Origin: Parvularcula maris
Lineage (GTDB): Bacteria > Pseudomonadota > Alphaproteobacteria > Caulobacterales > Parvularculaceae
Direction of reading: 5' to 3'
DNA length: 64,000 bases
Assembly (NCBI RefSeq): GCF_024505085.1
Contig: NZ_JANIBC010000001.1
Location: 124,001-188,000, forward strand
The notes under the pieces are model-generated. The model was not told where the DNA came from. It did not search any database and worked only from the letters and a program-made list of their open reading frames with translations. The stretch's first letter is position 1. Every line of letters begins with the position of its first letter. The position numbers were made by a program, and so were the translations under genes. Below, one piece after another: positions 248-62,870 of the stretch.

Positions 248-607
248 ATGAAAGCCTACTTTGCCCTCTTGTCCGCTTTTGCTTCCCTCGTCGCCACAGC
301 CTTCGCTGGCGAGGTCGAGATCGTCGGTGTCGAGATCGACCACCTGCGTGAGCAAAGCTTCCGCGTCTCCGTCACCCTCCGCCATGATGACGAGGGTTGG
401 GGTCACTACGCCGATAAGTGGGAAGTGTTGAACGCCGATGGCGAGAAGCTCGGCGAGCGGGTCCTCGCCCATCCCCATGTGGATGAGCAGCCCTTCACCC
501 GGTCGACCACCATGACCATTCCTGAGGGTGTGGAGGAGGTGACCATCCGTGCACGGGACAGCGTGCATGGCTGGGCGGAAGAAACGGTGACAAAGGAAGT
601 GCCGTAG
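248..607 (+). CDS. Small secreted protein of unknown function
   Basis: 119 residues. I chose ATG 248 over the upstream in-frame ATG 206 because it has GGAGGAAAC just upstream and yields a clean signal peptide (MKAYFALLSAFASLVATAFA, cleavage expected after AFA). The mature part, about 99 residues, is acidic, lacks cysteines and ends in a predicted beta-rich segment (TMTIPEGVEEVTIRARDS), so it may be a small beta-sandwich exported to the periplasm. I do not recognise the family. The TAG stop at 605-607 lies inside the arm of repeat A2. Confidence 0.75.
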   Translation: MKAYFALLSAFASLVATAFAGEVEIVGVEIDHLREQSFRVSVTLRHDDEGWGHYADKWEVLNADGEKLGERVLAHPHVDEQPFTRSTTMTIPEGVEEVTIRARDSVHGWAEETVTKEVP

Positions 608-678
608 GGCGGGCGGCGAAGCCGACCGCGCTGCTACGGTAAGAAACTGGCTCGCGGCCGGCTCCAACGCCCGCCTAC
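603..678. repeat. Family A hairpin repeat, copy A2
   Basis: Left arm CGTAGGGCGGGCG and right arm CGCCCGCCTAC enclose about 50 bases. The element fills the whole junction between two convergent genes. Its left arm contains the stop codon of the plus-strand gene and its right end touches the stop codon of the minus-strand gene. Confidence 0.8.
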
Positions 679-1004
679 TAGGCCTTAGGGTCGAATGGAA
701 CGAACCGAATGTCGTAGGCGTGGTTGGTTTCTGTGGGAGGGATGGAAGGGTCAGTTCGGTAGAAATCAATCTTACCGTCCAGAGCAAACCCTACTTCTGT
801 GCTGACGCTTCGGAATAGGTCGAAGGCGGTGTCGTCGTCCTCTGCCCACATTCGCATCGACGTGACTGCCGGACCCAGTGGAGGTTCAAAGCCATGCTTC
901 TGCTCCAGTACTGCACCTGCGGCCATCAACGTATAGTGCGTAAGCGGTGTTTTGAGCCGACCGTAGCGGAGTTTGAGTTTCCAGTCGGTCGGCTCATTAG
1001 TCAT
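678..1004 (-). CDS. Hypothetical cytosolic protein co-transcribed with ahcY
   Basis: 108 residues, with ATG at 1002-1004, one base after the ahcY stop codon (1006-1008). It is therefore very likely translated from the ahcY message by termination-reinitiation. The protein is soluble and rich in charged and aromatic residues, with no signal peptide, membrane segment or cysteine. I recognise no family. The pattern 'ISTEVGF..DGKIDFYRTDP' near residues 68-88 suggests an alpha/beta fold only weakly. Proximity to ahcY hints at a role tied to methyl-cycle expression, but that is inference. Confidence 0.7.
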   Translation of the reverse strand: MTNEPTDWKLKLRYGRLKTPLTHYTLMAAGAVLEQKHGFEPPLGPAVTSMRMWAEDDDTAFDLFRSVSTEVGFALDGKIDFYRTDPSIPPTETNHAYDIRFVPFDPKA

Positions 1005-1005
1005 T

Positions 1006-2406
1006 CTAGTACCGGTAGTCTTCGCCCTTGAAGGGGCCGTTCTTCTGCACGCCGATATAGTCCGCCTGCTCCTGGCTCAGCTCGCTGAGGTTCGCGCCGA
1101 CATGGGCGAGATGGAGGCTGGCGACTTTCTCGTCGAGGTGCTTCGGTAGGACATAGACCTGGTTCTTGTACTTACCGTCGTCATTGTTCGCGAAGAGCTC
1201 GATCTGGGCCAGGGTCTGGTTGGTGAAGCTGGCCGACATGACGAAGCTGGGGTGCCCTGTCGCGTTGCCTAGGTTCACGAGGCGGCCTTGGCTGAGGAGG
1301 ATGATCCGCTTCTCATCGGTCAGGTGCACCATGTCCACCTGGTCCTTGATATTCGTCCACGGATAGTTCTTCAGCGCATCGACTTGGATCTCGTTGTCGA
1401 AATGGCCGATATTGCAGATGATGGCCATGTCCTTGGCCTCGCGCATATGGTCAGCTGTCAGAACGTCTTTGTTGCCCGTGGCGGTGACCACGATGTCCGA
1501 GCGGGGCATGGCCTGCTCCATGGTGACGACCTCGTAGCCGTCCATGGCCGCCTGGAGGGCGCAGATGGGGTCGACCTCGGTCACCATGACCCGGCAGCCC
1601 GCGCCGCGAAGGGACGCAGCCGAGCCCTTGCCGACATCGCCGTAGCCCGCGACGGTGGCGACCTTGCCGGCCATCATGACGTCGGTGCCCCGGCGGATGG
1701 CGTCGACCAGCGATTCCTTGCAGCCGTACTTGTTGTCGAATTTCGACTTGGTGACCGAGTCGTTCACGTTGATCGCGGGGAAGGGGAGGGTGCCTTCCTT
1801 CGCACGCTGATAGAGGCGCATGACGCCGGTGGTGGTTTCCTCGGTGACGCCTTTGATCGAGGCTTTGACCTTGGAGTAGAAGCCGGGGTCGCGCTCTAGG
1901 CGGCGCTTGATCGTGGCGAAGAAGGCCTCCTCTTCCTCGTTGGAGGGGTTTTCAAGCACGGAAGGATCGCTCTCGGCCTGGCTGCCGATCAGGATCAGCA
2001 TGGTGGCGTCGCCGCCATCGTCGAGGATCATGTTGGCATAGGAGCCGTCCGGCCACTCCCAGATCCGATCGCAGAAGTCCCAGTACTCCTCCAGCGTCTC
2101 GCCCTTATGGGCGAAGACCGGCGTCCCCGACGCGGCGATGGCGGCGGCGGCATGATCCTGGGTGGAGAAGATGTTGCAGCTCACCCAGCGCACCTCGGCG
2201 CCGAGGGCCTCGAGGGTACGGATCAGCACTGCCGTCTGGATGGTCATGTGCAAGGAACCCGCGATGCGCGCGCCCTTGAGCGGCTTCGATTGGCCGTATT
2301 CGGCGCGGGTCGCCATCAGGCCGGGCATCTCGTGCTCGGCGATGGCGATCTCCTTCTCACCGAACTCGGCAAGGCTGATGTCTTTGACGGCGTAGTCCTG
2401 GGCCAT
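1006..2406 (-). CDS. ahcY: Adenosylhomocysteinase (S-adenosyl-L-homocysteine hydrolase)
   Basis: Cytosolic NAD-dependent enzyme that splits S-adenosylhomocysteine into adenosine and homocysteine, removing the inhibitory product of methyltransferases. The 466 residues match the usual bacterial length. Visible landmarks are the N-terminal substrate region '[20 protein letters not shown]', the '[13 protein letters not shown]' loop, the catalytic lysine region '[14 protein letters not shown]', the NAD-binding glycine motif '[12 protein letters not shown]', the 'NIGHFDNEI' segment and the terminal Lys/Tyr tail ending in YRY that reaches into the partner subunit. ATG 2406 is preceded by GGAGGA. A perfect palindrome 48 bases upstream is a likely operator. 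A 108-residue gene follows after one base. Confidence 0.98.
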
Positions 2407-2453
2407 GGGTCCTCCTGATCATCCTGGCCGGGGCGGTAGCAGGGCAGGGAGGG

Positions 2454-2475
2454 GATATAAAGCTTTCTTTATATC
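2454..2475. promoter_or_regulatory. Palindromic operator upstream of ahcY (SahR/SamR-like site)
   Basis: Perfect inverted repeat: 9-base arms GATATAAAG and CTTTATATC with a 4-base spacer CTTT, in the 119-base divergent region between ahcY and the PH-domain gene. It lies 48 bases before the ahcY start. An AT-rich perfect palindrome in such GC-rich DNA is unlikely by chance. ArsR-family regulators of the S-adenosylhomocysteine cycle (SahR type) are known to control ahcY in Proteobacteria through palindromes. Assigning this site to such a regulator is inference; the regulator gene is not in the window. Confidence 0.65.
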
Positions 2476-2525
2476 GCTCTGGCTCCTACCACACCATTCG
2501 AGGGCACGGAAAGGAAGATCGCCGG

Positions 2526-3116
2526 ATGCGCAAAGACCGGAACCGAGGAAAGAACCAGGATGAGTTCGAGAGGTTCCTTGATCCAGGGGAATTGATTCTA
2601 TGGCGTGGCGAAGCAGGAAGTGGTGTGGCCTTCTCGCCCTTCGATGCCTTTCTCATTCCGTTCGCGCTTGTTTGGACCTCTGTGCCCCTATCCATGATTG
2701 GGTTGACCTCGACTGGCATGGCGTCACAGTCGAACGACATTGATGCCTTCTTTATACCCTTTACTATCGTTCCTCTTCTGTTCGTAATATTCGGATGTTA
2801 TCTCCTGTTTGGTCGCTTTCTTATTGATATGAGGAGGCGATCCAAAACTTCGTATGCTTTGACGAATGATCGAGCTCTTATTTTTAAACCGGGAGGTTCC
2901 CTCGAGGCTAGAGCCATTAATCCTTCTACTGAGCTAACATTGAAAACTGGTCGAAAAGGTTCGTTGACCTTTGGTTCCTCCACCTTAAACTTCTTCGATC
3001 CAATGGCTCAAATTGCTATGTTGACTGGGCAGAAGGCAGGGTTTGTTTTCGAGCGGATTGATGACGCCGAAAAGGTCTACCGTCTAGTGAGAAACCTTCA
3101 GAAAGAACAGCAATAG
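2526..3116 (+). CDS. Two-helix membrane protein with bacterial PH-like domain, AT-rich gene
   Basis: 196 residues: a soluble start, two hydrophobic helices (about 38-60 and 76-102, separated by a polar loop), then a beta-rich C-terminal domain with the pattern 'TSYALTNDRALIF...' typical of bacterial PH (bPH2/YdbT-type) domains, where 'YALTN.R.li' opens the fold. Function in bacteria is generally unknown; these proteins sit in the inner membrane with the PH domain in the cytosol. ATG 2526 follows AAAGGAAGA. Base composition is near 45-50 percent GC, far below all neighbours, and codon use is correspondingly different (many AAA, ATT, CTT), which points to recent horizontal acquisition. It is divergent from ahcY. 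Confidence 0.75.
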   Translation: MRKDRNRGKNQDEFERFLDPGELILWRGEAGSGVAFSPFDAFLIPFALVWTSVPLSMIGLTSTGMASQSNDIDAFFIPFTIVPLLFVIFGCYLLFGRFLIDMRRRSKTSYALTNDRALIFKPGGSLEARAINPSTELTLKTGRKGSLTFGSSTLNFFDPMAQIAMLTGQKAGFVFERIDDAEKVYRLVRNLQKEQQ

Positions 3117-3181
3117 CTTTCGTCTGCTGGTCGTCCTTACCGACGGGCCTACAATCAACGGGCGACCTTAGGAGCAGATCC

Positions 3182-4060
3182 ATGAACAACAGCGCCTTTC
3201 TGCCATCGGCAGCCTACCGCCTCTACGACCGCTACTGCCACGGTGAGATCGACCGGAGAGCCTTCTTCGATGGGCTCGGCCGGGTGGCGGGGGGCGCTGC
3301 AGCCGCCTCGGCCATGGCGGCGGCGCTTCTGCCGAACTACGCCCTGGCGCAGCAGGTCAAACCCGACGACCCCCGCATCAGGACCGAGCGCTTCTCCTAC
3401 GACTCGCCTGACGGCGCCGGGAAGATGCAGGGGCTCCTGGCGCGTCCGAAGGAGGTGATCGAGGTCCCGGCCGTCCTGGTCGTGCACGAGAACCGCGGGC
3501 TCAACCCTTACGTCGAGGACGTGGCGCGCAGGCTCGCGCTGGAGGGGTATGTGGCGCTGGCCCCCGACGCTCTGTTCCCGCTAGGCGGCTATCCGGGCAA
3601 TGACGATGACGGCCGCGCCATGCAGCGCGAGCGGGACCGCGCCGAGATGGTGGCGGACTTCCGCGCCGGTGCCCTCGCCGTGAGGGGCCACGAGCAGTCG
3701 ACCGGTAAGCTCGGCGCGGTGGGTTTCTGCTTTGGCGGTTATGTGGTGAACGAGCTTGCCGTGACCATGCCTGAGCTCGATGCCGCCGTGCCCTATTACG
3801 GCGGCTGGCCAGAAGCATCGCAGGCGGAGGATCTGTCGGCGGCGCTGATGGTGCAGCTCGCGGGCCTCGACGACCGTGTGAATGCGGGCTGGCCTCCTTA
3901 CGAGGAAGCGCTGCTCGAAGCGGGCAAGAGCTACTCCGCCCATATCTATGAGGGTGTGAACCACGGCTTCCACAACGACTCGACCAGCCGCTACGACGAA
4001 GAAGCCGCTGAGCTTTCCTGGGAGAGGACGCTGGCCTTCTTCAAGGAGCAGCTCAGCTAG
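3182..4060 (+). CDS. Dienelactone hydrolase family protein, probably exported
   Basis: 292-residue alpha/beta hydrolase. The catalytic cysteine lies in 'GFCFGGY' (Cys183); the acid is probably in 'LAGLDDRV' and the histidine in 'EGVNHGFHND', giving the Cys-Asp-His triad of dienelactone hydrolases. The N-terminus carries 'IDRRAFFDGLG' followed by an Ala/Gly-rich hydrophobic stretch and 'ALAQ', which resembles a Tat signal set after a short cytosolic lead; this family often has such a leader. The likely role is hydrolysis of lactones or esters in the periplasm; the true substrate is unknown. The gene overlaps the convergent DAAO-like gene by 8 bases, so no terminator can lie between them. Confidence 0.88.
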   Translation: MNNSAFLPSAAYRLYDRYCHGEIDRRAFFDGLGRVAGGAAAASAMAAALLPNYALAQQVKPDDPRIRTERFSYDSPDGAGKMQGLLARPKEVIEVPAVLVVHENRGLNPYVEDVARRLALEGYVALAPDALFPLGGYPGNDDDGRAMQRERDRAEMVADFRAGALAVRGHEQSTGKLGAVGFCFGGYVVNELAVTMPELDAAVPYYGGWPEASQAEDLSAALMVQLAGLDDRVNAGWPPYEEALLEAGKSYSAHIYEGVNHGFHNDSTSRYDEEAAELSWERTLAFFKEQLS

Positions 4061-5051
4061 GCAGCACTTTGGAGGCGATCGCGAAGGCCTCTTCGTACTC
4101 TTCTTGCGAGGGGGTCTCGTCATCCACCCCCTCGCCCCAGCCGTCGCCGCCGCGCTTTTGTAGCAAGGTGGTGTCGGCGCGGCGGTAGGCCGTGATCCCT
4201 TGATAAGAGATGGCGACGGGCGGCGCATGACGGCGGGACATCCAGGCGATCTGCCCACGGACGGGGATCAGGCTCTCGTCGCCGAACAGCGCCTTGGCGC
4301 CGTAGCCCGCTGCGTTAACGACGATGGGCTGGGGTAGGCTTTCCAGCTCCTGCCTGTCGCGGAAGCGGCGAATGGAGAGCTGCCCGCCCGCCGCCTCGAA
4401 CTGCGCCCTGATGGCCTGAACGTAACCGGGAATGTCGAAGCCGAGACGCTGGGTACGGACGGCGTAGCGGGCACGCAGGCCAAGCTCTGCAGTGCTGACC
4501 TCGCGCGGGGCGGGTGTCAGCTCTTCCAGGCGCCGTTCCAGCGGGCCTAGCCGCGCCGACGGTGCGTCGTCGTCCAGCTCGAAACGGGCGGTCATCGCGG
4601 CCATGCCGGTGAAGCGCAGGTGACGGCGATAGGCCGTCCGTGCCCACCCCTCCCACCTAGCGGCGAAGCCTTCGTCTCGGCGCATGGTCAATCGGCTGTC
4701 GGGCGTCCAGAAGCCGGTGGCGAAGGCAGACCGGGTGCGGAGGGGCGGCTCGGCGGTGTAGATGGTGACATGGCACCCTGCTTCTTGCAGCGTGAGCGCG
4801 GTCGTCAGTCCGATGGCGCCCGCACCGATGACGGCGACGGGCGCTGCCTCGCCCACCAGACGCCGCACTTCCTCCGCACACCCCCAGGAAAGCGACCAGC
4901 CTGCTCCCCCATGGCCGTAATGGTGGATCAGGCGTTTGGAGCCAAGCGCCTCCTCTTCGATGCGAGGACCGTCGGGCCGGTAGGGGCGGATGCAGACCGT
5001 TATCCGCTTAAGACGGTCAGGTGCGAAATCCGCTGCCCTGAGGTCGATCAC
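4053..5051 (-). CDS. D-amino-acid-oxidase-like FAD oxidoreductase, circularly permuted
   Basis: 332 residues of the DAO fold in a permuted order. The segment that normally closes D-amino acid oxidases comes first: 'CIRPYRPDGPRIEEEALG' (about 20-37) and 'HHYGHGGAGWSLSWGCA' (about 43-59). Only then comes the FAD dinucleotide motif 'VAVIGAGAIGLTTALTLQEA' (about 73-92) that normally opens the protein. The middle and end ('VNAAGYGAKALFGDE', 'VRGQIAWMS', 'ISYQGITAYRR') follow the usual order. It probably oxidises a D-amino acid or related amine with FAD. The start is GTG at 5051, overlapping the upstream stop by four bases (GTGA). It is the last gene of the operon that begins with the DUF885 gene. 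There is no convincing signal peptide. Confidence 0.85.
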   Translation of the reverse strand: MIDLRAADFAPDRLKRITVCIRPYRPDGPRIEEEALGSKRLIHHYGHGGAGWSLSWGCAEEVRRLVGEAAPVAVIGAGAIGLTTALTLQEAGCHVTIYTAEPPLRTRSAFATGFWTPDSRLTMRRDEGFAARWEGWARTAYRRHLRFTGMAAMTARFELDDDAPSARLGPLERRLEELTPAPREVSTAELGLRARYAVRTQRLGFDIPGYVQAIRAQFEAAGGQLSIRRFRDRQELESLPQPIVVNAAGYGAKALFGDESLIPVRGQIAWMSRRHAPPVAISYQGITAYRRADTTLLQKRGGDGWGEGVDDETPSQEEYEEAFAIASKVLPS

Positions 5052-10820: not shown

Positions 10821-10840
10821 ACGTTGCGTAGCCCTCTCAG

Positions 10841-10950
10841 CCTGTCGGCAGCTCCCCCACCCGTGGGGGAGCGAAGTAGGACCAACCCTTCAACCTGCGC
10901 CCCTCCCCCATCACATGGGTAGGTGCCCGTAGGGCGGAGGGGGCTGCTGC
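10841..10950. repeat. Family C repeat (C1) with perfect 10-base hairpin
   Basis: Lies between convergent priA and the SDR gene. It contains GCTCCCCCAC-CC-GTGGGGGAGC at 10851-10872, a perfect 10-base-arm hairpin, then a degenerate C-rich/G-rich second pair ending in GTAGGGCGGAGGGGGCTG, which shares its GTAGGGCGG with family A. A closely related element is at 36757-36949. There is no T-run, so it is not a textbook intrinsic terminator, but the stem could stop transcription from both sides. Confidence 0.75.
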
Positions 10951-11645: not shown

Positions 11646-11723
11646 CGTAGGGCGGCTCGCGCAGCGTACGGCCGTGTTAGAGTGAGATGTAAGAAGGCGG
11701 CACGCTGCGCGAGCCGCCCTACG
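11646..11723. repeat. Family A hairpin repeat, copy A4
   Basis: The best-preserved copy: the left arm beginning CGTAGGGCGGCTCGCGCAGC and its exact reverse complement on the right pair over 22 bases. It lies between the SDR start and the thiolase stop, ending two bases before the thiolase stop codon at 11726-11728. It is positioned as a 3'-end element of the thiolase transcript. Confidence 0.88.
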
Positions 11724-13281: not shown

Positions 13282-14037
13282 CTAGCTCACCGCCTCGGCC
13301 AGCTCGCCCTTGTCCATCTTCGAGCGGCCCTCGACATCCTGCTCCTTGGCTTTCTCGTACAGCTCCTCTTTCGTGTAGTCCGAAAGATTGCTGCTGCTTT
13401 GTTTGTTGAGCGCCTCGATCAGCTCGTCCTTGGACATGTCGGACCGGCCGTCGATGTCCTGGTCCTGAGCCATGTCGTAGAGCTCCTCCTTGGTTTTGCC
13501 CTGAAGGGCGTTCTCGCTGCCCTTCTTGCGGCCGTTCTCGTCGGTGGCGTCCTCGATGGCGTCCAGAAGCTCGTCCTTGGTCATGGAGGAGCGTCCCTCG
13601 ATCTCGAGGTCCTCGGCCCGCTCCATCAGCATCTCCTTGGTCGGGCCGCCGTCTTTGATCTTGGAGACCTTCTCCTTCACGTCGTCGGGCTGGTCCACAT
13701 ACTGGCCGTCGCCGTTCTTTTTCTTCTTGGTGGAGCGGGCGTACTCGTCCTCGGTGAGGAGCATGCGCACTTTTTTGGGCAGGTAGCGCTCGCCGGTCTC
13801 GCCGCTTTCTCCGCCGGACTTGGTGCCCCAGTCCTCCTCGGTCCACTCGTGAAGGTCCGTCTCGTCCTGGTCGGGGCCGTCATCCTCGTAGCCGCCGCCG
13901 CGCTTTTTGTACTTCTGCACGGCAAGCTGCGCCTTGCGCGCCGACCACTGGCCCGGATCGCCGCCCTTGTCTGATTCTTTCACCTCCTCCTTGACCTCTT
14001 CCCAGAGTTCGGGGTCGGTTTTCTTGGCTTCGGCCAT
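13282..14037 (-). CDS. DUF5872 protein with three Rho-N/SAP-like repeats
   Basis: 251 residues from ATG 14037 (GGAGAC upstream). The N-terminal half, rich in Lys/Glu/Asp, matches the DUF5872 pattern ('DPELWEEVKEEVKESDKGG', 'WSARKAQLAVQKYKKRGGGY', 'RYLPKKVRMLLTEDEY'). The C-terminal half has three copies of a 30-40-residue helix-extended loop-helix unit of the Rho termination-factor N-terminal/SAP type, opening TKEMLMERAEDLEIEGRSSM, TKEELYDMAQDQDIDGRSDM and TKEELYEKAKEQDVEGRSKM. Such units bind nucleic acids. The role is unknown; a DNA- or RNA-associated protein is inferred. Confidence 0.85.
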   Translation of the reverse strand: MAEAKKTDPELWEEVKEEVKESDKGGDPGQWSARKAQLAVQKYKKRGGGYEDDGPDQDETDLHEWTEEDWGTKSGGESGETGERYLPKKVRMLLTEDEYARSTKKKKNGDGQYVDQPDDVKEKVSKIKDGGPTKEMLMERAEDLEIEGRSSMTKDELLDAIEDATDENGRKKGSENALQGKTKEELYDMAQDQDIDGRSDMSKDELIEALNKQSSSNLSDYTKEELYEKAKEQDVEGRSKMDKGELAEAVS

Positions 14038-23357: not shown

Positions 23358-23454
23358 CTTCCCATGGTCGCGTAGCGATCCGTGAGACCCATCTCCTAAA
23401 GAGTGTTCCAGGTGGGCCGTTCGGAGTTGGGTCCCACGGACAAGCCGTGGGAAG
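23358..23454. repeat. Family D repeat, copy D1
   Basis: Sits between the convergent small membrane gene and trpB. Ends are CTTCCCATGG and CCGTGGGAAG, with inner TAGCGATCC..GACCCATCTCC and GTTGGGTCCCACGG blocks that pair. Both this copy and D2 (49165-49274) are preceded by CTTTTGC, so the repeat unit may extend a few bases to the left. Confidence 0.75.
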
Positions 23455-23475
23455 GCGTCTCAAAAGAAGACGAGC

Positions 23476-29249: not shown

Positions 29250-29253
29250 AGCC

Positions 29254-29340
29254 AATTCCGATCGAATTGTCTCTAGGTTCTTTTCGGTGGTCGCACTTTC
29301 TAACGCCCAACCGGTATCCACTTGGTCGGAAAGTGCTCTA
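29254..29340. repeat. Family E imperfect palindrome (alphaproteobacterial AGAGC..GCTCT type)
   Basis: Begins GCCAATTCCGATCGAATTG and closes with CGGAAAGTGCTCTA. This resembles a dispersed repeat frequent in Rhizobiales-like genomes whose ends read AGAGCAATTCCGATC and TGCTCT. Only one copy is visible in the window. It lies between convergent ubiB and the outer-membrane protein gene. Confidence 0.55.
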
Positions 29341-29345
29341 GCGCA

Positions 29346-29374
29346 TAAAAAAGCGGCGCCGCGAGGGCGTCGCT
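29346..29374 (-). terminator. Rho-independent terminator of the outer-membrane protein gene
   Basis: On the minus strand AGCGACGCC-CTCGC-GGCGCCGCT forms a 9-base stem with one A-C mismatch and a 5-base loop, followed by TTTTTT. It starts 25 bases after the stop codon of the barrel protein gene. Confidence 0.85.
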
Positions 29375-30178: not shown

Positions 30179-30396
30179 CTTGTCCTCCTCAAACGCCCCC
30201 TGCCGGGTTACGGGCGCTGCAAAACCTTGCGCCCATCAACCGGCGCACCACGGATAAAGCCTTCAACGTTGCGCATTCAAGACAGTTCCCGCAACTGATC
30301 TGCGGAATCAGGCGAATTAGGCAAAAAGGCAACAGAGGAGCGCAGCATGGTTACCGCGCCAGCGTTGCCTTTCATGCCGGTGGAGATGGTAAACGG

Positions 30397-34655: not shown

Positions 34656-34746
34656 GGGAGAGGTGTCCGCGTCTGAGGGGCCGGGGTCAAGGGTTCCTCT
34701 GAACCACCGCTATCGCGGACAAAAGTATTACGACAGAGGCTATAGC

Positions 34747-34858
34747 GTCATCCCGGCCGTAGCGAAGCGGAGAGCCGGGACCCATGGACCTTCATTCCGC
34801 AACCCATGACGGTCCAGTTCATAGATCCCGGATAAGCCTGACGGCTTTCCAGGATGAC
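34747..34858. repeat. Family B repeat, copy B1
   Basis: Ends are GTCATCCCGG and CAGGATGAC. Inside are AGCCGGGACCCATGGACC and GGTCCAGTTCATAGATCCCGG, which pair. It lies at the 3' side of the esterase gene, upstream of the M28 gene. Related copies: 38044-38179, 44604-44716, 49760-49880. Confidence 0.82.
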
Positions 34859-34886
34859 GGAGGTTGAGAACCTCCGAACATACCCC

Positions 34887-36756: not shown

Positions 36757-36949
36757 CCTCAGCCTACCGGCAGCTCCCCCTCGGGGAGGGGGAGCGAGAT
36801 AGAGGGTAGGCGCTGGTTTGGTTTTCCTCCCCCGCCACTGCCGTGGCCTTCTTCGCTTAGATTTGGTCCCCCGGACCAAATCTTCCACCTAGGGTGAACC
36901 AGCTACGAAGTGGGGGAGGTGCCCGAAGGGCGGAGGGGGCAGCGGCAAC
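36757..36949. repeat. Family C repeat, copy C2, with covarying hairpin
   Basis: Opens CTCAGCCTACCGGCAGCTCCC and ends GGGCGGAGGGGGCAGCGG, mirroring C1. The middle holds the perfect 11-base-arm hairpin AGATTTGGTCC-CCC-GGACCAAATCT (36859-36883). Its core equals that of 16728-16752 while its outer arms differ and still pair. It lies at the 3' end of mdh. Confidence 0.78.
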
Positions 36950-36968: not shown

Positions 36969-38179
<1,211 letters not shown>

Positions 38180-38182
38180 GGA

Positions 38183-39481: not shown

Positions 39482-39663
39482 CTGAACTCCGTGTCATTTT
39501 TTGTTATGACCGACACTTTGGACGCCGCGCCGCTCTTTTGAAGGGGCGTTGAGCGCAAATCCGCTCAAACGAAGCGGTTTTCCCACGCGCTTGCGAATTG
39601 CGCTTCGGAACGAAGCCTGCGGCCGCCCCGTTCCTACGCCAGCTAACCCCATAGGAGGCAAAC

Positions 39664-40270: not shown

Positions 40271-40347
40271 CGTAGGGCGGCTCGCGGAGCGTGCCGCCTT
40301 TGCCAGCTCCAACCGTTCAGGCGGCACGCTGCGCAAGCCGCCCTACG
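40271..40347. repeat. Family A hairpin repeat, copy A5
   Basis: CGTAGGGCGGCTCGCGGAGC and its near-exact reverse complement (GCTGCGCAAGCCGCCCTACG) enclose about 40 bases. It fills the junction of the convergent DUF4112 and AGCS genes, ending two bases before the AGCS stop codon. Confidence 0.87.
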
Positions 40348-44594: not shown

Positions 44595-44603
44595 CCCACA
44601 ACC

Positions 44604-44716
44604 GTCATCCCGGAAAGCCGTCAGGCTTATCCGGGACCCATGGACCCACGCGTTGTGATGGACGCTACGTTTGGTCCATGGGTCCCGGCTCTCCGCTTCG
44701 CTGCGGCCGGGATGAC
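44604..44716. repeat. Family B repeat, copy B3
   Basis: GTCATCCCGGAAAGCCGTCA at the left and CTGCGGCCGGGATGAC at the right, with GGGACCCATGGACC and GGTCCATGGGTCCC facing each other in between. It lies nine bases after the stop of the DUF305-LVIVD gene and, with A6, fills its junction with convergent zapE. Confidence 0.85.
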
Positions 44717-44730
44717 GTCTGCTATATAAG

Positions 44731-44807
44731 GTAGGGCGGCTCGCGTAGCGTGCCGCCGTTCAGGGCTCGGACGGTTGCAGGCGGCACGCTATGCGCGCGC
44801 CCCTACG
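44731..44807. repeat. Family A hairpin repeat, copy A6
   Basis: GTAGGGCGGCTCGCGTAGCG and GGCGGCACGCTATGCGCGCG form the arms. The right end CCCTACG (44801-44807) contains the zapE stop codon (TAG on the minus strand, 44803-44805), so the element supplies the end of the zapE reading frame. Confidence 0.82.
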
Positions 44808-49043: not shown

Positions 49044-49122
49044 CGCACGGCGGAACGCGAAGCTTTCCGCCGTTCGGCGCAGTACCCAGGCACGGCGGCA
49101 CGCTGCGCGAGCCGCCCTACGG
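49044..49122. repeat. Family A repeat, chimeric copy A7
   Basis: The left half (CACGGCGGAACGCGAAGCTT) is of the A1 subtype, the right half (GGCACGCTGCGCGAGCCGCC, then CTACGG) of the A4 subtype. It looks like a recombinant of the two. It begins three bases after the PurD-like stop. Confidence 0.75.
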
Positions 49123-49164: not shown

Positions 49165-49274
49165 CTTCCCATGGTCGCGCAGCGATCCATGGGACCCATC
49201 ACCCGACGGACTAAGCCGTACTCAAACGGCAGGAGATGGGTCCCACGGTCTACGCTTCGCTACGCCGTGGGAAA
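49165..49274. repeat. Family D repeat, copy D2
   Basis: CTTCCCATGGTCGCGCAGCG then ATCCATGGGACCCATC at the left, and GAGATGGGTCCCACGG then TACGCCGTGGGAAAG at the right. It is close to D1 at 23358-23454 in sequence and arrangement. Confidence 0.82.
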
Positions 49275-49295
49275 GCGGATGAAGAAACCGCTGCC

Positions 49296-49376
49296 CGTAG
49301 GGCGGCTCCCGGAAGCGTGCCGCCAATCCTAGGCGGACTGCCTCAAGGCCGATCACCTTCGGTGTTCCGCCCTACG
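49296..49376. repeat. Family A repeat, copy A8
   Basis: CGTAGGGCGGCTCCCGGAAG opens it; GGTGTTCCGCCCTACG closes it. The right half matches the A9 subtype (GGCGGATCACCTACGGTGTT) rather than A4, again a mixed copy. Confidence 0.8.
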
Positions 49377-49759
49377 GATGTGGTGGCGAACTTATCCCCG
49401 CCCTCTCCCCGTCGCGTATGTTCCTCTTGTCGCAGCAGACGTTCGGGGCGGGAGGCGCCATCCTACTCGGCTTGCTGCCTTGGTGGGGCTTCGGGGCGGG
49501 TGGTCCTGGGGGCGGCGCAGCAGATGCTCGTCCGCTTACCGTCTGCCCGCAAGCTGGACCCGAGCAGGGCGAGCTAAGGATTGGCCCCTGTTCAGAGCCT
49601 TACCAAGCGGGCGCGCGGCGTTGGGGAATGGGCTCCCCTCAGGCCAAAGCACCTTTCACAGTTACACACCCACGCGGCGGCCGCGCCGCGCGCCGGGTCC
49701 CCGTTCCGATGAACTGTCCGCGACAAGCGGATGGTTGTGTTGCCCAGCCTCCTACCGCC

Positions 49760-49880
49760 GTCATCCCGGCCGAAGAGCCGGGACCCATGGACCAGTCAGC
49801 TCTGACAAACGCAACGGACCGAACGGCACGCACCGCCGGTCCATGGATCCCGGATCGCGCTGGCGCGCTTCCGGGATGAC
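49760..49880. repeat. Family B repeat, copy B4
   Basis: GTCATCCCGGCCGAAGAGCC and CGCTTCCGGGATGAC ends, with GGGACCCATGGACC facing GGTCCATGGATCCCGG. It ends 19 bases before the sdhB stop codon. Confidence 0.87.
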
Positions 49881-49899
49881 GGGGGAAGGAGATGACCTC

Positions 49900-51645: not shown

Positions 51646-51650
51646 CGCCT

Positions 51651-56772: not shown

Positions 56773-57282
56773 ATGTTCAGGCTCGCAGCCGCGGGGGCGG
56801 CGCTTTCACTTCTTCTCACAGCATCGGCAGCGGCGCAGGACCTCCGCCCGGTCACCGAGAACATGACCGCCGCCGATATCGAGCGCGTGCTTAAGGAAGC
56901 AGGTCTCAACCCGACGATGACCGAGGATGCCGCAACGGGCGCGCCGGTGGCGACGGGCAATGCCGACGGGGTGATCTTCGTCCTGCGCGCCGTGGACTGC
57001 GCAGGCACGCCCCAACGCTGCCAGCAGCTCGTCCTCTTCGCCAATTTCGAGCTGCGCCGCGACATCACCGAGCGCGACTTCCGCGTGGTCAACGGCTTCA
57101 ACGACAGCGCCGCCAACGGCCGCGCCTATGTCCTGGAAGGCGCGGGCCAGGTGGGGGTCGACTACGTCATCGACCTCACCGGCGGGGTCACCGCCGAGCA
57201 CATTCAGGGGCGCCTCGGCAAGTGGCCGGAGATCATCGGCACCTTCCGTGAGCAGATGGTGGGTGCTTATACGGGGGTGTGA
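56773..57282 (+). CDS. Secreted YbjN-domain protein
   Basis: 169 residues from ATG 56773. The signal peptide is MFRLAAAGAALSLLLTASAA, then AQD. The YbjN-like fold is suggested by 'MTAADIERVLKEAGLNPTM' (about 30-48), 'DGVIFVLRAVDC' and 'LVLFANFELRRDITERDFRV' (about 86-105). Two cysteines (about 76 and 83) may be bridged. YbjN proteins bind to type III secretion chaperone-like partners in some bacteria, but the exported alphaproteobacterial version has no known function. Confidence 0.87.
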   Translation: MFRLAAAGAALSLLLTASAAAQDLRPVTENMTAADIERVLKEAGLNPTMTEDAATGAPVATGNADGVIFVLRAVDCAGTPQRCQQLVLFANFELRRDITERDFRVVNGFNDSAANGRAYVLEGAGQVGVDYVIDLTGGVTAEHIQGRLGKWPEIIGTFREQMVGAYTGV

Positions 57283-57289
57283 CGCTGTC

Positions 57290-57307
57290 CTCCCCTGATA
57301 GGGGGAG
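57290..57307. repeat. Short CTCCCC/GGGGAG hairpin between convergent genes
   Basis: CTCCCC-TGATAG-GGGGAG, a 6-base stem between the YbjN gene stop and the typA stop. It resembles the core of family C but is truncated; there is no T-run. Confidence 0.45.
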
Positions 57308-57315
57308 AAGGCTTC

Positions 57316-59160
57316 CTAAGCCGCATCCTCTTTCGCACGCCTCTTGCGCATATGCGGCTCGAGCTCTCTCTTCCGCAGGCGGATGGTCTTGGGCGTGACC
57401 TCGACCAGCTCGTCATCGCCGATATAGCTGATGGCGGCCTCTAAGCTCAGCTTGCGCGGCGGAGTGAGGCGGACGGCGTCGTCCTTACCGGCGGCGCGGA
57501 TATTGGTGAGCTGCTTAGCCTTGAGGGGGTTCACGTCGAGGTCGTCGGGCTTGGCGTTCTCGCCGATGATCATGCCTTTGTAGACCTTCTCGCCGGGCGA
57601 GATGAACATGATGCCGCGCTCTTCAAGGTTCCAAAGGGCGTAGGGCACCGCCTCGCCGTCGCCGTTGGAGATGAGGGCGCCCTGACGACGCGCCTCGATC
57701 TGACCCTTATACGGAGCATGTTCGAGATAGGCGCGGTTGACGACGCCGGTGCCGCGCGTGTCGGTGAGGAACTCCGAGTGGTAGCCGATGAGCGCGCGGG
57801 CCGGGGCGTGAAGGATGATCCTGGTCTTGCCGCCGCCTGAGGGCTTCATCTCGACAAGCTCGGCCTTTCTTTGGGTCAGCTTCTCGATGACGACGCCCGT
57901 ATGCTCCTCATCGACGTCGATGGTGACCTCCTCGATGGGCTCGAGGGTCCGTCCGTTCTCGTCCTTTCGCGTCACCACGCGGGGTCTGGAGACGGCGAGT
58001 TCGAAGCCCTCGCGGCGCATGTTCTCGAGAAGGACGCCGAGCTGCAGTTCGCCGCGGCCAGCGACCTCATAGGCGTCGCCGCCCTCGGTCTCGGAGACCT
58101 GGATCGCGACATCGCCCTCGGCTTGGCGGAAGAGGCGTTCGCGGATGACCCGGCTCTGCACCTTGTCACCCTCGCGGCCAGCCAGCGGGCTGTCGTTCGG
58201 CGCCACACGGATCGAAAGGGTCGGCGGGTCGATGGGCTGGGCGGGAAGCGCGTCGTTCACGGAGAGATCGCAGAGCGTATCGGCGACGGATGCCTTCTGG
58301 AAACCGGCCAGGGCCACGATGTCGCCAGGCTGCGCCTCGTCGATGGGCTGGCGAGCGAGGCCGCGGAAGGCTAGCACCTTGGTGATCCGTACGCGCTCGA
58401 TCTCCGAGCCGTCCGCGTCGAGCGCCTTGAGGGTCATGCCGGGCTTGACGCTGCCCTGGTTGACCCGCCCCGTCAGGATACGGCCGAGGAAGTTGTCGGC
58501 CTCAAGGGTGGTCGCCAGCATCTGGAACGGCTTCGTGCCAGCGTCGTCGGCGACTGGGGGCGGGGGGACGTGAGCGACGATGCGCTCGAACATCGGCGTC
58601 AGGTCCTGGCGCGCGCCGTGCTCTTCCTCATCGGCCCAGCCGTCGCGGCCGGAGGCGTAGAGGACGGGAAAGTCGAGCTGCTCGTCCGAAGCGCCGAGCG
58701 CCGCGAAGAGATCGAAGGCGGCATCGAGCGCCGCATCAGGCTCCGCCTGCGGACGGTCCACCTTGTTGAGGCAGACGATGGGGCGGAGGCCCAGCGCAAG
58801 GGCTTTCGACAGCACGAACTTGGTTTGGGGCATCGGCCCCTCGGCGGCGTCGATCAGCAGCACGCAGCCATCGACCATGGAGAGGATGCGCTCCACCTCG
58901 CCGCCGAAATCGGCGTGGCCGGGGGTGTCGACGATATTGATGCGGACGGGCTCGCCCCCCTTGTCCCAGAGGACGGAGGTAGCCTTGGCGAGGATGGTGA
59001 TGCCGCGCTCACGCTCGATGTCGCCCGAGTCCATGGCCCGCTCGGCCATCTCCTGGTGCGCTTCGACGGTGCCGGACTGGCGCAGCATCTCGTCCACGAG
59101 GGTGGTCTTGCCGTGGTCGACATGCGCGATGATCGCAATATTGCGGAGTTGTTCGGTCAT
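57316..59160 (-). CDS. typA: Ribosome-associated GTPase TypA/BipA
   Basis: 614 residues from ATG 59160; the frame extension to 59196 is not homologous. GTP site '[17 protein letters not shown]' (about 9-25), switch region '[15 protein letters not shown]', '[18 protein letters not shown]' (about 71-88) and '[14 protein letters not shown]'. EF-G-like domains II, III and V follow, then the TypA-specific C-terminal domain with '[18 protein letters not shown]'. It binds the 70S ribosome at the EF-G site and is needed under stress and low temperature. Confidence 0.97.
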
Positions 59161-59229
59161 GGCCGGGCCAGTGACCGCTTTTTGTGCACTGCGCAAGAAA
59201 AAGCTTGGAGAGGCTTAGCGCTCCGCAGC

Positions 59230-59520
59230 TCAGTCCCGCTTGAAGGCCGAGCCGATCCGGTTGAGGACCATCTTCGGCGCGGCGGCTACGCGGCCCAGCG
59301 TGCTTCCTGCGCTCGGCTCGGGCGGCGCCTCGTTGGAGAGGATCTGGCCGTCCTCGCCGTGGAGGATCAGGCGCACGCCGTTGCGGCCCGCCATCTCGCG
59401 GCCGCGCTTCATCGCGTCCTTACAGCGGTCGAAATGCGCCGAGGCGCGAGAGGCGCCGGCCCGTTTGACGTCCCAGCCCGCCTCGTCGCTGCCGGTGATG
59501 TGGTAGTTTCCGTCGCTCAT
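59230..59520 (-). CDS. DUF2188 domain protein
   Basis: 96 residues. 'GNYHITGSDEAGWDVKRAGA' (about 4-23) and 'KRGREMAGRNGVRLILHGED' then GQI (about 38-60) match the DUF2188 layout (two beta hairpins with an intervening helix, ending in HGxDG). The C-terminal 30 residues are basic and Ala-rich. The function is unknown; DUF2188 proteins often appear next to stress genes. It lies alone between typA and the acyl hydrolase gene. Confidence 0.82.
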   Translation of the reverse strand: MSDGNYHITGSDEAGWDVKRAGASRASAHFDRCKDAMKRGREMAGRNGVRLILHGEDGQILSNEAPPEPSAGSTLGRVAAAPKMVLNRIGSAFKRD

Positions 59521-59571
59521 GCCGCACCTCCTTACCGGGCTGAAACGGTCAGAGGCGAGCGATGGTTCCCT

Positions 59572-60912
59572 TTAGGGCATGAAGCCGTGCTCGGTGAGGA
59601 AGAGGATCGTGGCGGTCAGGAAGGCAGGCTCGACGGTATCGGTCTTGAGGAACGCGCCGCCGCCGGGCAGCGCGGCGCGCTGATCGCCATGTTCGAGCGT
59701 ATGGCCGATACCCGGCACGACGATGGTCCGCAGCGTTCCTCCAGCCTCTTCGATAGCGTTCAGTGCTTCCAGGTTCTCGCGCAGCGGAACGATCGGGTCA
59801 TCCGCTCCGAAGACAGCCAGGTAGGGGACGCTTTCGAGCTCTGACAACAAGGCCGAGGGGTCGTAGCGGAAGCGGCGCAGGAAAAGCCCGTCCATCTCGC
59901 CGGGAGAGGAGGGCAGGTCGTCGTTTGCGAACATGCCGGCGTACCACCCCTCCGCCTCGGCCTGCTCCCTGATGGCGGCAAGCCGTTCATAGGCTGCGTC
60001 GTCGCCGAGCCGGGGGTCGGTGAGGATGCGGACCGCCTCCTCGGCAAGCGCTGCGGTCTGTGGAGGAAGGCCGTTCGCCTTGGCATAGGGGCGGGCGGAG
60101 CCGAGCTGCTGCTGTCTGATCGAGGTGGCGGGGCCTATCCAGGTGATGAGGAAGGCGGGCTTGGGGCCTCGGCCAGCCAGGCGCTTCTCCGTCAAACCTT
60201 GCGCGGTCCAGGCTCCTGCCGAGATGCCGCGAAGACCGATACGCGCAGCATCCGTCCGGCGGTGGCGGGCGAGGGCGAGGAACGCGGCTTCGGCGTCGGC
60301 CACGGTGCTCTCATGGCTCGCCTCTTCGCAGGTGCCGCCGCTCTCGCCAGCACCGCGTTTGTCGAAGGTGATCGCCGACATGCCGCGCAGAGCGTACTGC
60401 TTCGCCTCGCCCAAGGAGCGCGTGCCGCAGCCTCGCCCGTGAAGAAGCACGATGCCCGCGCTTGCCTTCACGCGGGAGGGAAGAACGACCGTGCCGGAGA
60501 ACTCGGTGCCGTCTCGGCTGGTGAAGCGCACCTCCTCAAGCTCAATGGCCAGGGGCGGCGGGGGCGGGACCGGCTTGAGATGCACCCGGACGCTGCCTTC
60601 GTCGCGCGCCACCTCGCCGACGAGCTGGCCGAAGCGGGGGTCCCGCTGCAGCACGGCGTCGCCGCCATAGAACCCTTCGATGACGATGCCTTCTTCGGTC
60701 ACGCGCACGAGGTCGGCGGAGGGCTCGTACCAGAGCCATTCGGGGAAGCGGGAGACGGCGGTGACAGCCTCGCCGTCCGCCCTCACCTCCATCTCGACCA
60801 CGATCGGCGTGCCGTCCTGGATGATCGCGCCGGTATAGTGTCCTGCCAGGGGGCGTGCACCCTCCGTCTGGAGCGTCAGCAGCGCGGCCAGCGCGGCGAT
60901 CATCATCGACAT
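59572..60912 (-). CDS. Secreted alpha/beta hydrolase (acyl-CoA thioesterase/BAAT-like)
   Basis: 446 residues with a short signal (MSMMIAALAALLTLQTEGA). A beta-rich N-terminal domain of about 135 residues is followed by the hydrolase core: 'GIVLLHGRGCGTRSLGEAKQ', 'ITFDKRGAGESGGTCEEASH', nucleophile 'IGLRGISAGAWTAQ' (Ser about 227), acid in 'AVFGADDPIVPLRE' and histidine in 'VPGIGHTLEHGD'. The layout resembles large exported hydrolases of the BAAT/dienelactone group. The substrate is unknown. It is divergent from the DUF2721 gene. Confidence 0.87.
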   Translation of the reverse strand: MSMMIAALAALLTLQTEGARPLAGHYTGAIIQDGTPIVVEMEVRADGEAVTAVSRFPEWLWYEPSADLVRVTEEGIVIEGFYGGDAVLQRDPRFGQLVGEVARDEGSVRVHLKPVPPPPPLAIELEEVRFTSRDGTEFSGTVVLPSRVKASAGIVLLHGRGCGTRSLGEAKQYALRGMSAITFDKRGAGESGGTCEEASHESTVADAEAAFLALARHRRTDAARIGLRGISAGAWTAQGLTEKRLAGRGPKPAFLITWIGPATSIRQQQLGSARPYAKANGLPPQTAALAEEAVRILTDPRLGDDAAYERLAAIREQAEAEGWYAGMFANDDLPSSPGEMDGLFLRRFRYDPSALLSELESVPYLAVFGADDPIVPLRENLEALNAIEEAGGTLRTIVVPGIGHTLEHGDQRAALPGGGAFLKTDTVEPAFLTATILFLTEHGFMP

Positions 60913-61017
60913 GGCTTCTCCCTCTCCGCGCCAGGGAAGAGATCGCCGCGGGCAGGGTCAAGCCGAGGACGCAGCGCTTCTTGACCGCTACCTCCAAGCC
61001 AGCGCAGGGACCTTTCC

Positions 61018-61479
61018 ATGGAGAACCTCCCCATCGCCGAGGCCATCAGGTTGGCCGTGGCGCCGATCTTCCTTCTGGCGGGGATCGGTGCGCTCCTCAA
61101 CGTCATGACCGCGCGGCTCGGGCGGGTGGTGGACCGCGCCCGGCTTCTCGAAGGCATGATCGAGGCGGGGGAGGAGGCCGACCTCCTCATGCGCCACCAG
61201 GTCGAGTTGGCGGTGCTGGGCAGCCGGATCAGGGCCGCCAACCGGGCGATCTACACCACCTCGATCTCGGCGCTCTTCGTCTGCTTCGTGGTCGCGCTGC
61301 TCTTCGTGGAGGAGCTGACCTCCAGCATTCCCGTGGCGGCGGAGGCCATTGCGGCGCTCTTCATCCTGACCATGGCGTTCCTCACCCTGGGGCTCGCTTT
61401 CTTCCTGCGCGAGATCGCTGTGGCCTCGCGTTCGCTGCAGGTGCGTTCAGAGCTTTTGGGGGAGCAACGTTTGCGCTGA
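61018..61479 (+). CDS. DUF2721 family membrane protein
   Basis: 153 residues: 'IAEAIRLAVAPIFLLAGIGA' (about 6-25) with 'LLNVMTARLGRVVDRARLLE' after it is the DUF2721 signature. Two more helices lie at about 81-100 and 108-132. A charged helical segment (about 45-75) links the first and second. Function unknown. The next gene begins 35 bases downstream on the same strand. Confidence 0.9.
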   Translation: MENLPIAEAIRLAVAPIFLLAGIGALLNVMTARLGRVVDRARLLEGMIEAGEEADLLMRHQVELAVLGSRIRAANRAIYTTSISALFVCFVVALLFVEELTSSIPVAAEAIAALFILTMAFLTLGLAFFLREIAVASRSLQVRSELLGEQRLR

Positions 61480-61514
61480 AGGAGTGTTCGCGAGGCGATC
61501 TTAGGGAGAGTTCC

Positions 61515-62387
61515 ATGCGCTTTGACGATTTCGGCCAGTCCGACAATATCCGCAACCGGCGCGGCGAGGGGGGATCGAGCCTCGGCGGGGCGGGGCTGGT
61601 GGGTCTCTTCTACCTGTTCCGTATGGTGTTCAGCCGGTTCGGCATCATCGGCGTGGTGGTCCTAGGCGCGGGCCTCTTCTTTCTGTCGGGGACGGGACTC
61701 AGCCCGCTCGGCTCGAACTCCTCCGGCTCGCACGAGGCCGCAACGTCCGAGTACGATCAGCTCGTCGGCGCGGTGCTCCTCTCCACCGAGAACGTCTTCA
61801 ACGACGTGTTCCAGGAGGAGGGGCTTGGCGACTATCCCGAGCCGATCCTCAACCTCTTCGCCGGCCGGATCACGACGAGGGGCTGCGGCGGCGCGACCTC
61901 GGCGGTGGGGCCGTTCTACTGCCCGGCGGACAGCCAGGTCTATATCGACACGAGCTTCTTCGACGAGCTGTCCCAGCGTTTCGGCGCGCCGGGCGACTTC
62001 GCCCAGGCCTATGTCATCGCCCATGAGGTCGGCCACCATATCCAGAACGTCACCGGCATCTCCGACCAGGTGCGCTCCGCCCAGCAGCGGGCCAGGGGCG
62101 ACGCCGAGCGCAACGAGTACTCCGTGCGCCTGGAGCTGATGGCGGACTGCCTCGCGGGCGTGTGGGCGGGGCGGACGCAGATCCAGCTCGAGCAGGGCGA
62201 CATCGAGGAGGCTCTGCGCGCCGCCGCCGCCATCGGCGACGACACGCTGCAGCGGAGATCGTCAGGCCGCGTCGTGCCCGACAGCTTCACCCACGGCACG
62301 AGCGAGCAGCGCCAGCGCTGGTTCGCCACGGGCTATCAGGCACGGGACATGTCGGCCTGTGATACGCTGAATACGGATCGGTTGTAG
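61515..62387 (+). CDS. Neutral zinc metallopeptidase, YpfJ type
   Basis: 290 residues from ATG 61515. A short cytosolic lead 'MRFDDFGQSDNIRNRRG' is typical of the family. One hydrophobic stretch (about 42-60) anchors it in the membrane. The rest is periplasmic: 'CGGATSAVGPFYCPADSQVY' (about 120-139), the zincin motif 'VIAHEVGHHIQNV' (about 164-176) and 'ELMADCLAGVWAG' (about 205-217), whose Glu/Asp complete the metal site. The family is predicted to be a zinc protease; its substrate is not established. Confidence 0.92.
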   Translation: MRFDDFGQSDNIRNRRGEGGSSLGGAGLVGLFYLFRMVFSRFGIIGVVVLGAGLFFLSGTGLSPLGSNSSGSHEAATSEYDQLVGAVLLSTENVFNDVFQEEGLGDYPEPILNLFAGRITTRGCGGATSAVGPFYCPADSQVYIDTSFFDELSQRFGAPGDFAQAYVIAHEVGHHIQNVTGISDQVRSAQQRARGDAERNEYSVRLELMADCLAGVWAGRTQIQLEQGDIEEALRAAAAIGDDTLQRRSSGRVVPDSFTHGTSEQRQRWFATGYQARDMSACDTLNTDRL

Positions 62388-62394
62388 GGAGCGC

Positions 62395-62622
62395 ATGGAC
62401 ACAGAGCACGCGAAGTACTGTCTGGAAGGAACAACCTGCCTACCAGACAACTTCGAGCCTTGCTGCGACATTTTCGCTGGTCATACGGCGACTTGCGCCT
62501 TCGACCTTCGATACGAGTGGTGGGGCGCGGCGAAAGGCTGGTACATCCGTATCGCGGACGATGCCGGAGGAGGGGGGATCACAATCGCCTGGTGTCCCCA
62601 CTGCGGCACCCCCCTTTCCTGA
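62395..62622 (+). CDS. Small cysteine-rich probable zinc-binding protein
   Basis: 75 residues, starting seven bases after the protease stop. Cysteines at about 9, 15, 23, 24, 34, 67 and 70. The last pair is in 'IAWCPHCGTPLS', a rubredoxin-like knuckle, and 'CCDIFAGHTATCAFDLRYEW' is in the middle. The layout resembles short proteins of the DUF6980 type. No function is known. Co-transcription with the YpfJ-type gene is likely from the spacing. Confidence 0.72.
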   Translation: MDTEHAKYCLEGTTCLPDNFEPCCDIFAGHTATCAFDLRYEWWGAAKGWYIRIADDAGGGGITIAWCPHCGTPLS

Positions 62623-62739
62623 GCGCCTACGGACGAAGAAAGCGGTCATCTCGGGGCCGCGTAGCAGAGCTCGAGATCCAGAATCGAAGCGGTTTGATGA
62701 CGAGATGGTCCCAAAAAGACCGAACCTGACCGATGATGG

Positions 62740-62773
62740 ATTCCGGGCTCACCCTCCGGGTGCCCCGGAATGA
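62740..62773. repeat. Short family B-like hairpin (B5)
   Basis: ATTCCGGGCTCACCC and GGGTGCCCCGGAAT pair, with a TCC loop and one bulge, followed by GAC. It resembles the alphaproteobacterial ATTCCGG..CCGGAATGAC element and one end of family B. It lies between a plus-strand gene and the convergent M2 gene, just ahead of A9. Confidence 0.6.
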
Positions 62774-62791
62774 CTTCGACTTAGACCGCCT

Positions 62792-62870
62792 GTAGGGCGG
62801 AACGCGCAGCGATCCGCCACTTCAGTGGGTAAGGTTGCTAGGCGGATCACCTACGGTGTTCCGCCCTACG
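62792..62870. repeat. Family A hairpin repeat, copy A9
   Basis: GTAGGGCGGAACGCGCAGCG then ATCCGCC on the left, and GGCGGATCACCTACGGTGTT then CCGCCCTACG on the right. It ends two bases before the M2 peptidase stop codon. Sequence is of the A1/A8 subtype. Confidence 0.85.

Follow-up and report, generated by a model that had tools for sequence, protein, structure and literature searches.

Palindromic repeats of several families favor convergent junctions and gene 3′ ends in Parvularcula maris

Why should hairpin-forming repeats gather where two genes meet end to end? The question is raised by a 64,000-nucleotide stretch of Parvularcula maris DNA (positions 124001-188000 of contig 1 in a 3.19 Mb genome of 48 contigs; referred to below as the window), in which the original prediction, made by eye, placed a member of one of five hairpin families at every convergent junction with space between the genes and at no divergent junction. 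Profiles of the families were built from the window copies, iterated, and searched with nhmmer (E<1e-3) in the window and, as an independent test set, in a further 1.2 Mb of this genome (1.264 Mb examined in total). The search returned 134 non-redundant elements, comprising 43 of family B, 37 of family E, 32 of family A and 22 of family C. Two elements, one A and one E, lie outside gaps and were excluded from the gap counts, which cover gaps of at least 20 bases. The bias toward convergent junctions is firmly established and survives length matching; the every-or-none picture presented by the window is not general, and the elements prove to be associated with gene 3′ ends.

Outside the window, profile-matched elements occupied 50 of 125 convergent gaps, 46 of 387 co-directional gaps and 14 of 183 divergent gaps. 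If the 117 elements found there were distributed at random by free space, 16.6 would be expected in convergent, 56.4 in co-directional and 43.9 in divergent gaps, compared to the observed values of 53, 48 and 16. A profile scan of the kind proposed along with the original prediction upheld the convergent excess, including when gap length was matched: shuffling gap types among gaps of the same remaining-length stratum yielded 18.2 ± 3.6 occupied convergent gaps, with none of 5000 permutations reaching the 50 that were seen, and Mantel-Haenszel odds ratios under the same stratification were 5.1 for convergent versus co-directional gaps and 9.2 for convergent versus divergent gaps. Profile-free BLAST comparisons of outside gaps of at least 25 bases found sequence shared with three or more other gaps in 75/123 convergent, 78/380 co-directional and 25/183 divergent cases. 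The all-or-none rule, on the other hand, failed beyond the window, where a full-length copy is missing from 75 of the 125 spaced convergent gaps and 14 divergent gaps are occupied; by the looser BLAST count, 48 of 123 convergent gaps lack a repeat common to at least three others. Among the 14 divergent gaps with a repeat, ten span at least 400 bases and eight have at least 400 free bases, and these long gaps may hide uncalled genes. Short atypical genes can escape the caller, as with the frame at 2526-3116 in the window which has no Pfam match and was left uncalled, and the divergent gap before 3182 was therefore counted as 775 bases.

The bias also was assessed in other genomes. The comparison set included nine genomes of the same genus, among them G009 (apparently P. 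mediterranea ZS-1/3) and G004 (apparently P. lutaonensis KCTC 22245), and two genomes of another family of the order, G034 and G038, with 69-70% G+C. In 200 kb of G038 the P. maris profiles matched only eight copies (2/26 convergent, 5/78 co-directional and 1/31 divergent gaps), and therefore repeats defined de novo, as sequence common to several gaps, were used for this genome. They occupied 8/25 convergent, 11/75 co-directional and 1/31 divergent gaps in G038, and 4/26, 7/174 and 0/77, respectively, in G009. The same measure found no repeats in G004 or G034.

The rule behind this placement appears in gaps of comparable size. Among gaps with 100-400 free bases, 14 of 49 convergent, 23 of 176 co-directional and 5 of 123 divergent were occupied. 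Expressed per gene 3′ end, the rate was 0.143 in convergent gaps, which have two such ends, and 0.131 in co-directional gaps, which have one, or about one element for every seven ends. Co-directional elements lay a median of 25 bases from the upstream stop codon versus 93 bases from the next start codon, 42 of 48 being nearer the stop, and 35 of the 37 elements tested for relative position fell in the upstream half of the gap. The near-equal rate per 3′ end, together with the closeness to the upstream stop, therefore reveals an association with gene ends, of which a convergent gap has two. Inside convergent gaps, position was similar to random placement (median of 17 bases to the nearer stop compared to 16 for random positions), and co-directional copies showed no clear strand bias (A 6:7, B 9:14, C 2:2, E 7:6). 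When fewer than 30 bases were free, 14/85 convergent gaps were occupied versus 5/377 co-directional gaps, although these narrow co-directional gaps presumably are operon-internal in large part.

Within the window, our gene caller reproduced the predicted layout of 12 convergent junctions, nine spaced and three overlapping (by 8, 29 and 4 bases), and 11 divergent junctions, one of which overlaps and ten of which leave gaps of at least 20 bases. Full-length copies of families A, B, C and E occupy 6/9 spaced convergent gaps, 5/25 co-directional gaps and 0/10 divergent gaps (Table 1). The window pattern is thus partly confirmed: it is largely real, yet overstated. Six of the nine spaced convergent junctions do contain full-length family members and a seventh contains a degraded copy, but the ubiB/OMP hairpin, which lies beside a terminator, is single-copy in the 1.264 Mb examined and on this evidence does not represent a repeat family, and the YbjN/typA stem, which had been counted as a family member, is not above chance. 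Similarly, four of the five proposed families were borne out, whereas the fifth was the ubiB/OMP hairpin. Divergent gaps are free of repeats as described, but folding of each gap against 20 dinucleotide shuffles, which was applied to gaps short enough to fold, showed that two of eight foldable divergent gaps (30179-30396 and 39482-39663) beat all shuffles. The 858-base gap before sdhB exceeded the length limit of this test. The five co-directional gaps that also are filled by repeats were absent from the original prediction. Its observation that different families fill the same kind of site holds, as placement is common to several families. The conclusion that the position is selected is not supported in the form given: many spaced junctions outside the window lack a full-length copy, the rate per 3′ end is alike in co-directional gaps with 100-400 free bases, and at the four comparable junctions the repeat itself made the spacing.

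What are the elements? Family A consists of paired inverted palindromes with GTAG ends and CGTAGGGCGG...CCGCC units. Each of the six copies that were folded formed one hairpin of -51 to -69 kcal/mol, and 31 of the 32 dispersed copies are placed in gaps. Family B is CGTC-tagged, and the tag of family C is variable, with two of the six copies displayed starting CGTC and four starting CGCC or CGCT. Elements of families B and C are bounded by inverted arms such as CGTCATCCCGG and CCGGGATGACG, which makes them head-to-head dimers, and contain sub-hairpins by folding that might correspond to the stem-loop (stem of 8-9 bp, loop of 4-5 bases, CCA tail) of the four published consensus families of CGTC repetitive extragenic palindromic (REP) sequences. 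Family E is untagged. No Rfam match was obtained in the window at gathering scores. The genome contains a single match to the Y1 transposase domain (Y1_Tnp; contig 4, 86964-87458, 164 residues) which is similar to REP-associated tyrosine transposases (RAYTs). The gene is flanked on both sides by GTAGGGTGGACGC palindromes (contig 4, 86800-87560) that by eye are relatives of family A and recur as a few further copies in the sampled 1.2 Mb; judged from these copies, the GTAGGGTGGACGC repeat seems to be a further REP family related to A. A complete family A element next to this gene was looked for and not found.

These properties agree with the view that the hairpins are mobile palindromes, as originally suggested, in that the families resemble GTAG and CGTC REPs and relatives have empty sites. 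In the published account, GTAG and CGTC REPs are located mainly between convergent and unidirectional genes, near 3′ ends, and CGTC REPs mostly occur in alphaproteobacteria (Di Nocera, De Gregorio and Rocco, 2013; PMC3733652). The P. maris repeats share with them the end tags, the head-to-head dimers that possibly form one hairpin, the presence of several families per genome, the alphaproteobacterial bias of CGTC, the convergent or unidirectional location and the closeness to 3′ ends, but differ in that family E is untagged and in that empty orthologous sites are shown here. The word Parvularcula is absent from the main text of that paper. As in the account of REPINs (REP doublets forming hairpins) and RAYTs by Bertels and Rainey (2011; PMC3116915), family A is an inverted pair of GTAG palindromes and a Y1 transposase gene has GTAG palindromes alongside, except that the transposase gene here is flanked by the related GTAGGGTGGACGC palindromes and not by full family A. 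Stem-loops in general are concentrated in convergent gaps and after the stop codons of the bacteria analyzed by Petrillo et al. (2006; PMC1590033), where they are treated as general terminators or RNA elements, whereas many of those here are dispersed repeats. By title and abstract opening, no paper on palindromic repeats of Parvularcula was found in the open literature, and nothing was found on insertion creating spacing at convergent junctions among the papers listed on REP elements at convergent or overlapping genes and on bidirectional terminators at convergent genes. Long inverted intergenic repeats were reportedly described by Chen and Shapiro in 2003 in Caulobacter, a member of a related alphaproteobacterial order. 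The kind of phenomenon therefore is already known from the REP placement documented in 2013, and the new elements are the lineage, the recent expansion and the empty orthologous sites.

The expansion is evident from motif counts. The family A core motif CCGCCCTACG is present at 143 sites in P. maris (23 for reversed-pattern controls) versus no more than 52 in the nine same-genus genomes, and the family B core motif CGTCATCCCGG at 221 sites (1 for the control) versus no more than 29. Counts so far above those of the relatives indicate a recent, lineage-specific expansion. A separate expansion also was observed in G038, where the CGTCATCCCGG repeats reach 114 sites compared to 11 in G034 of the same family. 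G016, a genome 78% complete from the same family as the host, has 31 CCGCCCTACG sites, several as inverted pairs ~61 bases apart, and perhaps harbors another separate family A-like expansion.

Orthologous junctions provide a view of the sites before insertion. For 13 convergent junctions of P. maris, a sampled relative has orthologues of both genes next to each other (16 comparisons), although the restriction to conserved adjacency may favor tight junctions. Four of the 13 carry a repeat here and could be compared with G009 or G004; all four are empty in the relatives, where the gene pair either overlaps by 4 bases or is separated by 1-27 bases. The priA and SDR stops are separated by 1, 2 and 3 bases in the three relatives in which both genes were matched. 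At the DUF4112/AGCS junction, 30 loci were examined and five had both genes matched, with spacings of 85 bases in P. maris, 27 in G009, 24 in G004, 973 in G002 and -179 in G008; the last two are distant matches (65/60% and 41/58% identity, with spacing taken between extended ends) and were excluded from the empty-site count. The protein ends of PriA, SDR, TrpB and AGCS are kept relative to the orthologues, and the last residues differ in DUF4112 and in the left gene at contig 1, 196875. Among the nine comparable junctions without a repeat, six are tight in the relatives too (-25 to 5 bases), and the other three have both space and a terminator there. Co-directional loci behave alike: of six with a repeat here and a comparable relative, five are empty in relatives and one copy is shared. 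In repeat-free comparisons, with co-directional and convergent loci pooled (n=128), the median change in gap length was 0 with quartiles of -7 and +1. As insertion created the spacing at the four comparable junctions, a count that admits only convergent junctions without overlap is bound to be enriched and is partly circular.

A family B copy in the gap at contig 1, 263409-263640, occupies the same place in G009 and G004 and by this conserved position appears to be old and kept across species. The copy lies directly behind a gene whose product resembles ribosomal protein L27. By eye, no clear compensatory pair was apparent in the outer stem across the three sequences, and structural constraint on this copy is therefore not claimed.

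Hairpins that end or protect both convergent transcripts, kept by selection and interchangeable between families, offer an explanation of the placement as bidirectional terminators or 3′-end stabilizers, which we regard as possible but doubtful. Strong folding is consistent with it. Outside the window, 84/118 convergent, 113/361 co-directional and 17/157 divergent gaps beat all 20 shuffles (Fisher P 8e-26, convergent versus divergent), including 40 of 46 foldable convergent gaps with a repeat and 44 of 72 without. Same-genus relatives that are nearly repeat-free (1/73 convergent gaps) also showed hairpins in 37/70 convergent versus 20/180 divergent gaps, albeit unevenly (convergent gaps in G009 19/27, G003 11/22, G004 4/16, G006 3/5). 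Thus, hairpins at convergent ends are general, in agreement with Petrillo et al. (2006), and repeats are one of several sources of them. A T-rich tract (at least 5 T in 7) borders either edge of only 1 of the 134 elements, which therefore do not count as canonical intrinsic terminators. Convergent gaps here contain a U-tract terminator less often (23/134) than do those in sampled stretches of four same-genus relatives (33/73), as would be expected if repeats stood in for them, but replacement was rejected: intrinsic-terminator-like sites are equally frequent in convergent gaps with (9/50) and without (13/75) a repeat, and the high-G+C genomes G034 and G038 likewise have few (1/14 and 1/26), so that the deficit may be due to base composition. 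The comparable junctions favor a useful role in that repeats occupy four of the ten that are tight and terminator-free in relatives and none of the three that are spaced with a terminator, a contrast too small for a test. Over-occupation of tight seams per base points the same way, whereas the rate per 3′ end hardly exceeds that in co-directional gaps at 100-400 free bases. Termination is a putative role of the repeats.

We judge it probable, with considerable reserve, that several families of short, non-autonomous palindromic REP/REPIN-type mobile repeats multiplied recently and survive behind gene ends. Copies landing within a gene or ahead of a start codon would be purged and the survivors would be left behind gene ends, a convergent junction comprising two ends and no promoter. 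When transcribed, the repeats would form strong RNA hairpins both ways; these may stabilize 3′ ends or reduce read-through, which would be a by-product or secondary use rather than an established cause of the placement. Several points weigh against survival behind gene ends as the full account. Convergent occupancy is ~24 per kb of free space at <30 free bases versus ~1.2 per kb at 200-400 free bases, and this density at tight seams is unexplained by passive survival, which predicts occupancy proportional to free space; it therefore points to gene-end targeting or benefit. No movement of the repeats was observed. According to PMC3733652, CGTC REPs are without a known transposase. The half-A model finds nothing at contig 4, 85500-89500, around the Y1 transposase gene, with one family A core motif nearby at 86719. 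The few de novo repeats in G003 show no convergent bias (0/23 convergent, 4/95 co-directional, 1/52 divergent). In addition, genes were called with a purpose-built Markov model, and gene ends were not taken from curated annotation. Targeted insertion, by a mobilizing enzyme that prefers gene 3′ ends through terminator-like hairpins, single strands or polymerase stalled at converging transcription, would account for occupancy that is limited by the seam instead of proportional to space, and for the element gained between the priA and SDR stops, which are 1-3 bases apart in three relatives, but neither a target motif nor a target-site duplication was shown, and the similar placement of several families would need several enzymes or one common cue. 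We consider it improbable. A bolder proposal, which we think rather unlikely, is that insertion is focused on the seam of abutting convergent genes and that selfish palindromes become domesticated insulators which keep colliding transcription units apart and make the packing of the genome looser. Per free base, tight seams are occupied at a >10-fold higher rate than wide gaps, no prior terminator is found in relatives at the four comparable seams, and the insertion at priA/SDR damaged neither protein. Chance, or an annotation artefact of a single window, has almost nothing left to commend it. At the outside rates, 0/10 occupied divergent gaps is unremarkable (P=0.45) and at least 6/9 occupied convergent gaps is mildly unusual (P=0.10), but the strong bias in the independent 1.2 Mb and its recurrence in G038 and G009 refute this explanation.

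Two further features of the window stand apart from the repeats in Table 1. A perfect, A+T-rich inverted repeat, GATATAAAGCTTTCTTTATATC, with 9-base arms lies at 2454-2475, within the divergent gap that precedes the 1006-2406 gene; it looks like an operator and is outside the repeat families. The gene at 13282-14037 contains three internal repeats of ~83 bases that are 71-75% alike, with copies at 13292, 13412 and 13559.

Table 1. Repeats and other hairpins of the window, with the evidence for each.
Positions	Strand	Feature	Evidence
162..239	-	Family A, GTAG-tagged paired REP (REPIN-like), co-directional gap	nhmmer E 1e-16; folds as a single long hairpin of -51 kcal/mol
603..677	.	Hairpin resembling family A but degraded, fills convergent gap 608-677	GTAGGGCGG right after 603; z -5.2, 0/20 shuffles as good; BLAST ties to 3 other gaps
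10837..10910	+	Family E (CTCCCCC...GGGGGAG), priA/SDR convergent gap	Profile; stops 1-3 bases apart in three relatives
11646..11723	+	Family A, co-directional gap	Profile
23358..23457	+	Family C (CGTCTTCCCATGG...), 22978/trpB convergent gap	Profile; orthologues overlap by 4 bases in G009
29250..29343	+	Single-copy hairpin (fifth family of the original prediction), ubiB/OMP convergent gap	nhmmer self-match only in 1.264 Mb; gap fold z -4.4
29347..29374	-	Ordinary intrinsic terminator of OMP gene, GC stem and T run on minus strand	Sequence, fold; terminator scan positive on this strand
34746..34860	+	Family B (CGTCATCCCGG...), co-directional gap	Profile; gap of 50 bases in G009 and 40 bases in G004, no element
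36759..36833	+	Family E, co-directional gap	Profile; genes overlap by 1 base in G004
38044..38180	-	Family B, co-directional gap	Profile
40271..40347	-	Family A filling DUF4112/AGCS convergent gap	Profile; gap of 27 bases in G009 and 24 bases in G004, no element
44603..44717	+	Family B, DUF305/zapE (AFG1-like ATPase) convergent gap	Profile; genes by Pfam
44731..44807	+	Family A, DUF305/zapE gap	Profile
49047..49121	+	Family A, PurD-like/sdhB convergent gap	Profile
49165..49277	+	Family C, PurD-like/sdhB gap	Profile
49296..49376	-	Family A, PurD-like/sdhB gap	Profile
49759..49882	+	Family B, PurD-like/sdhB gap	Profile
57283..57315	.	Short stem in YbjN/typA convergent gap, no better than chance	z -1.45, 2/20 shuffles as good
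62792..62870	-	Family A, convergent gap before M2 peptidase gene	Profile; gene by Pfam

The by-eye rule that hairpins stand at all face-to-face gene ends thus reduces to the known rule that REPs lie behind gene ends, combined with the circularity that the repeat makes the gap in which it is counted. Whether REPs at 3′ ends are tolerated or useful is a question that the empty sites in Parvularcula relatives make testable through orthologous junctions.

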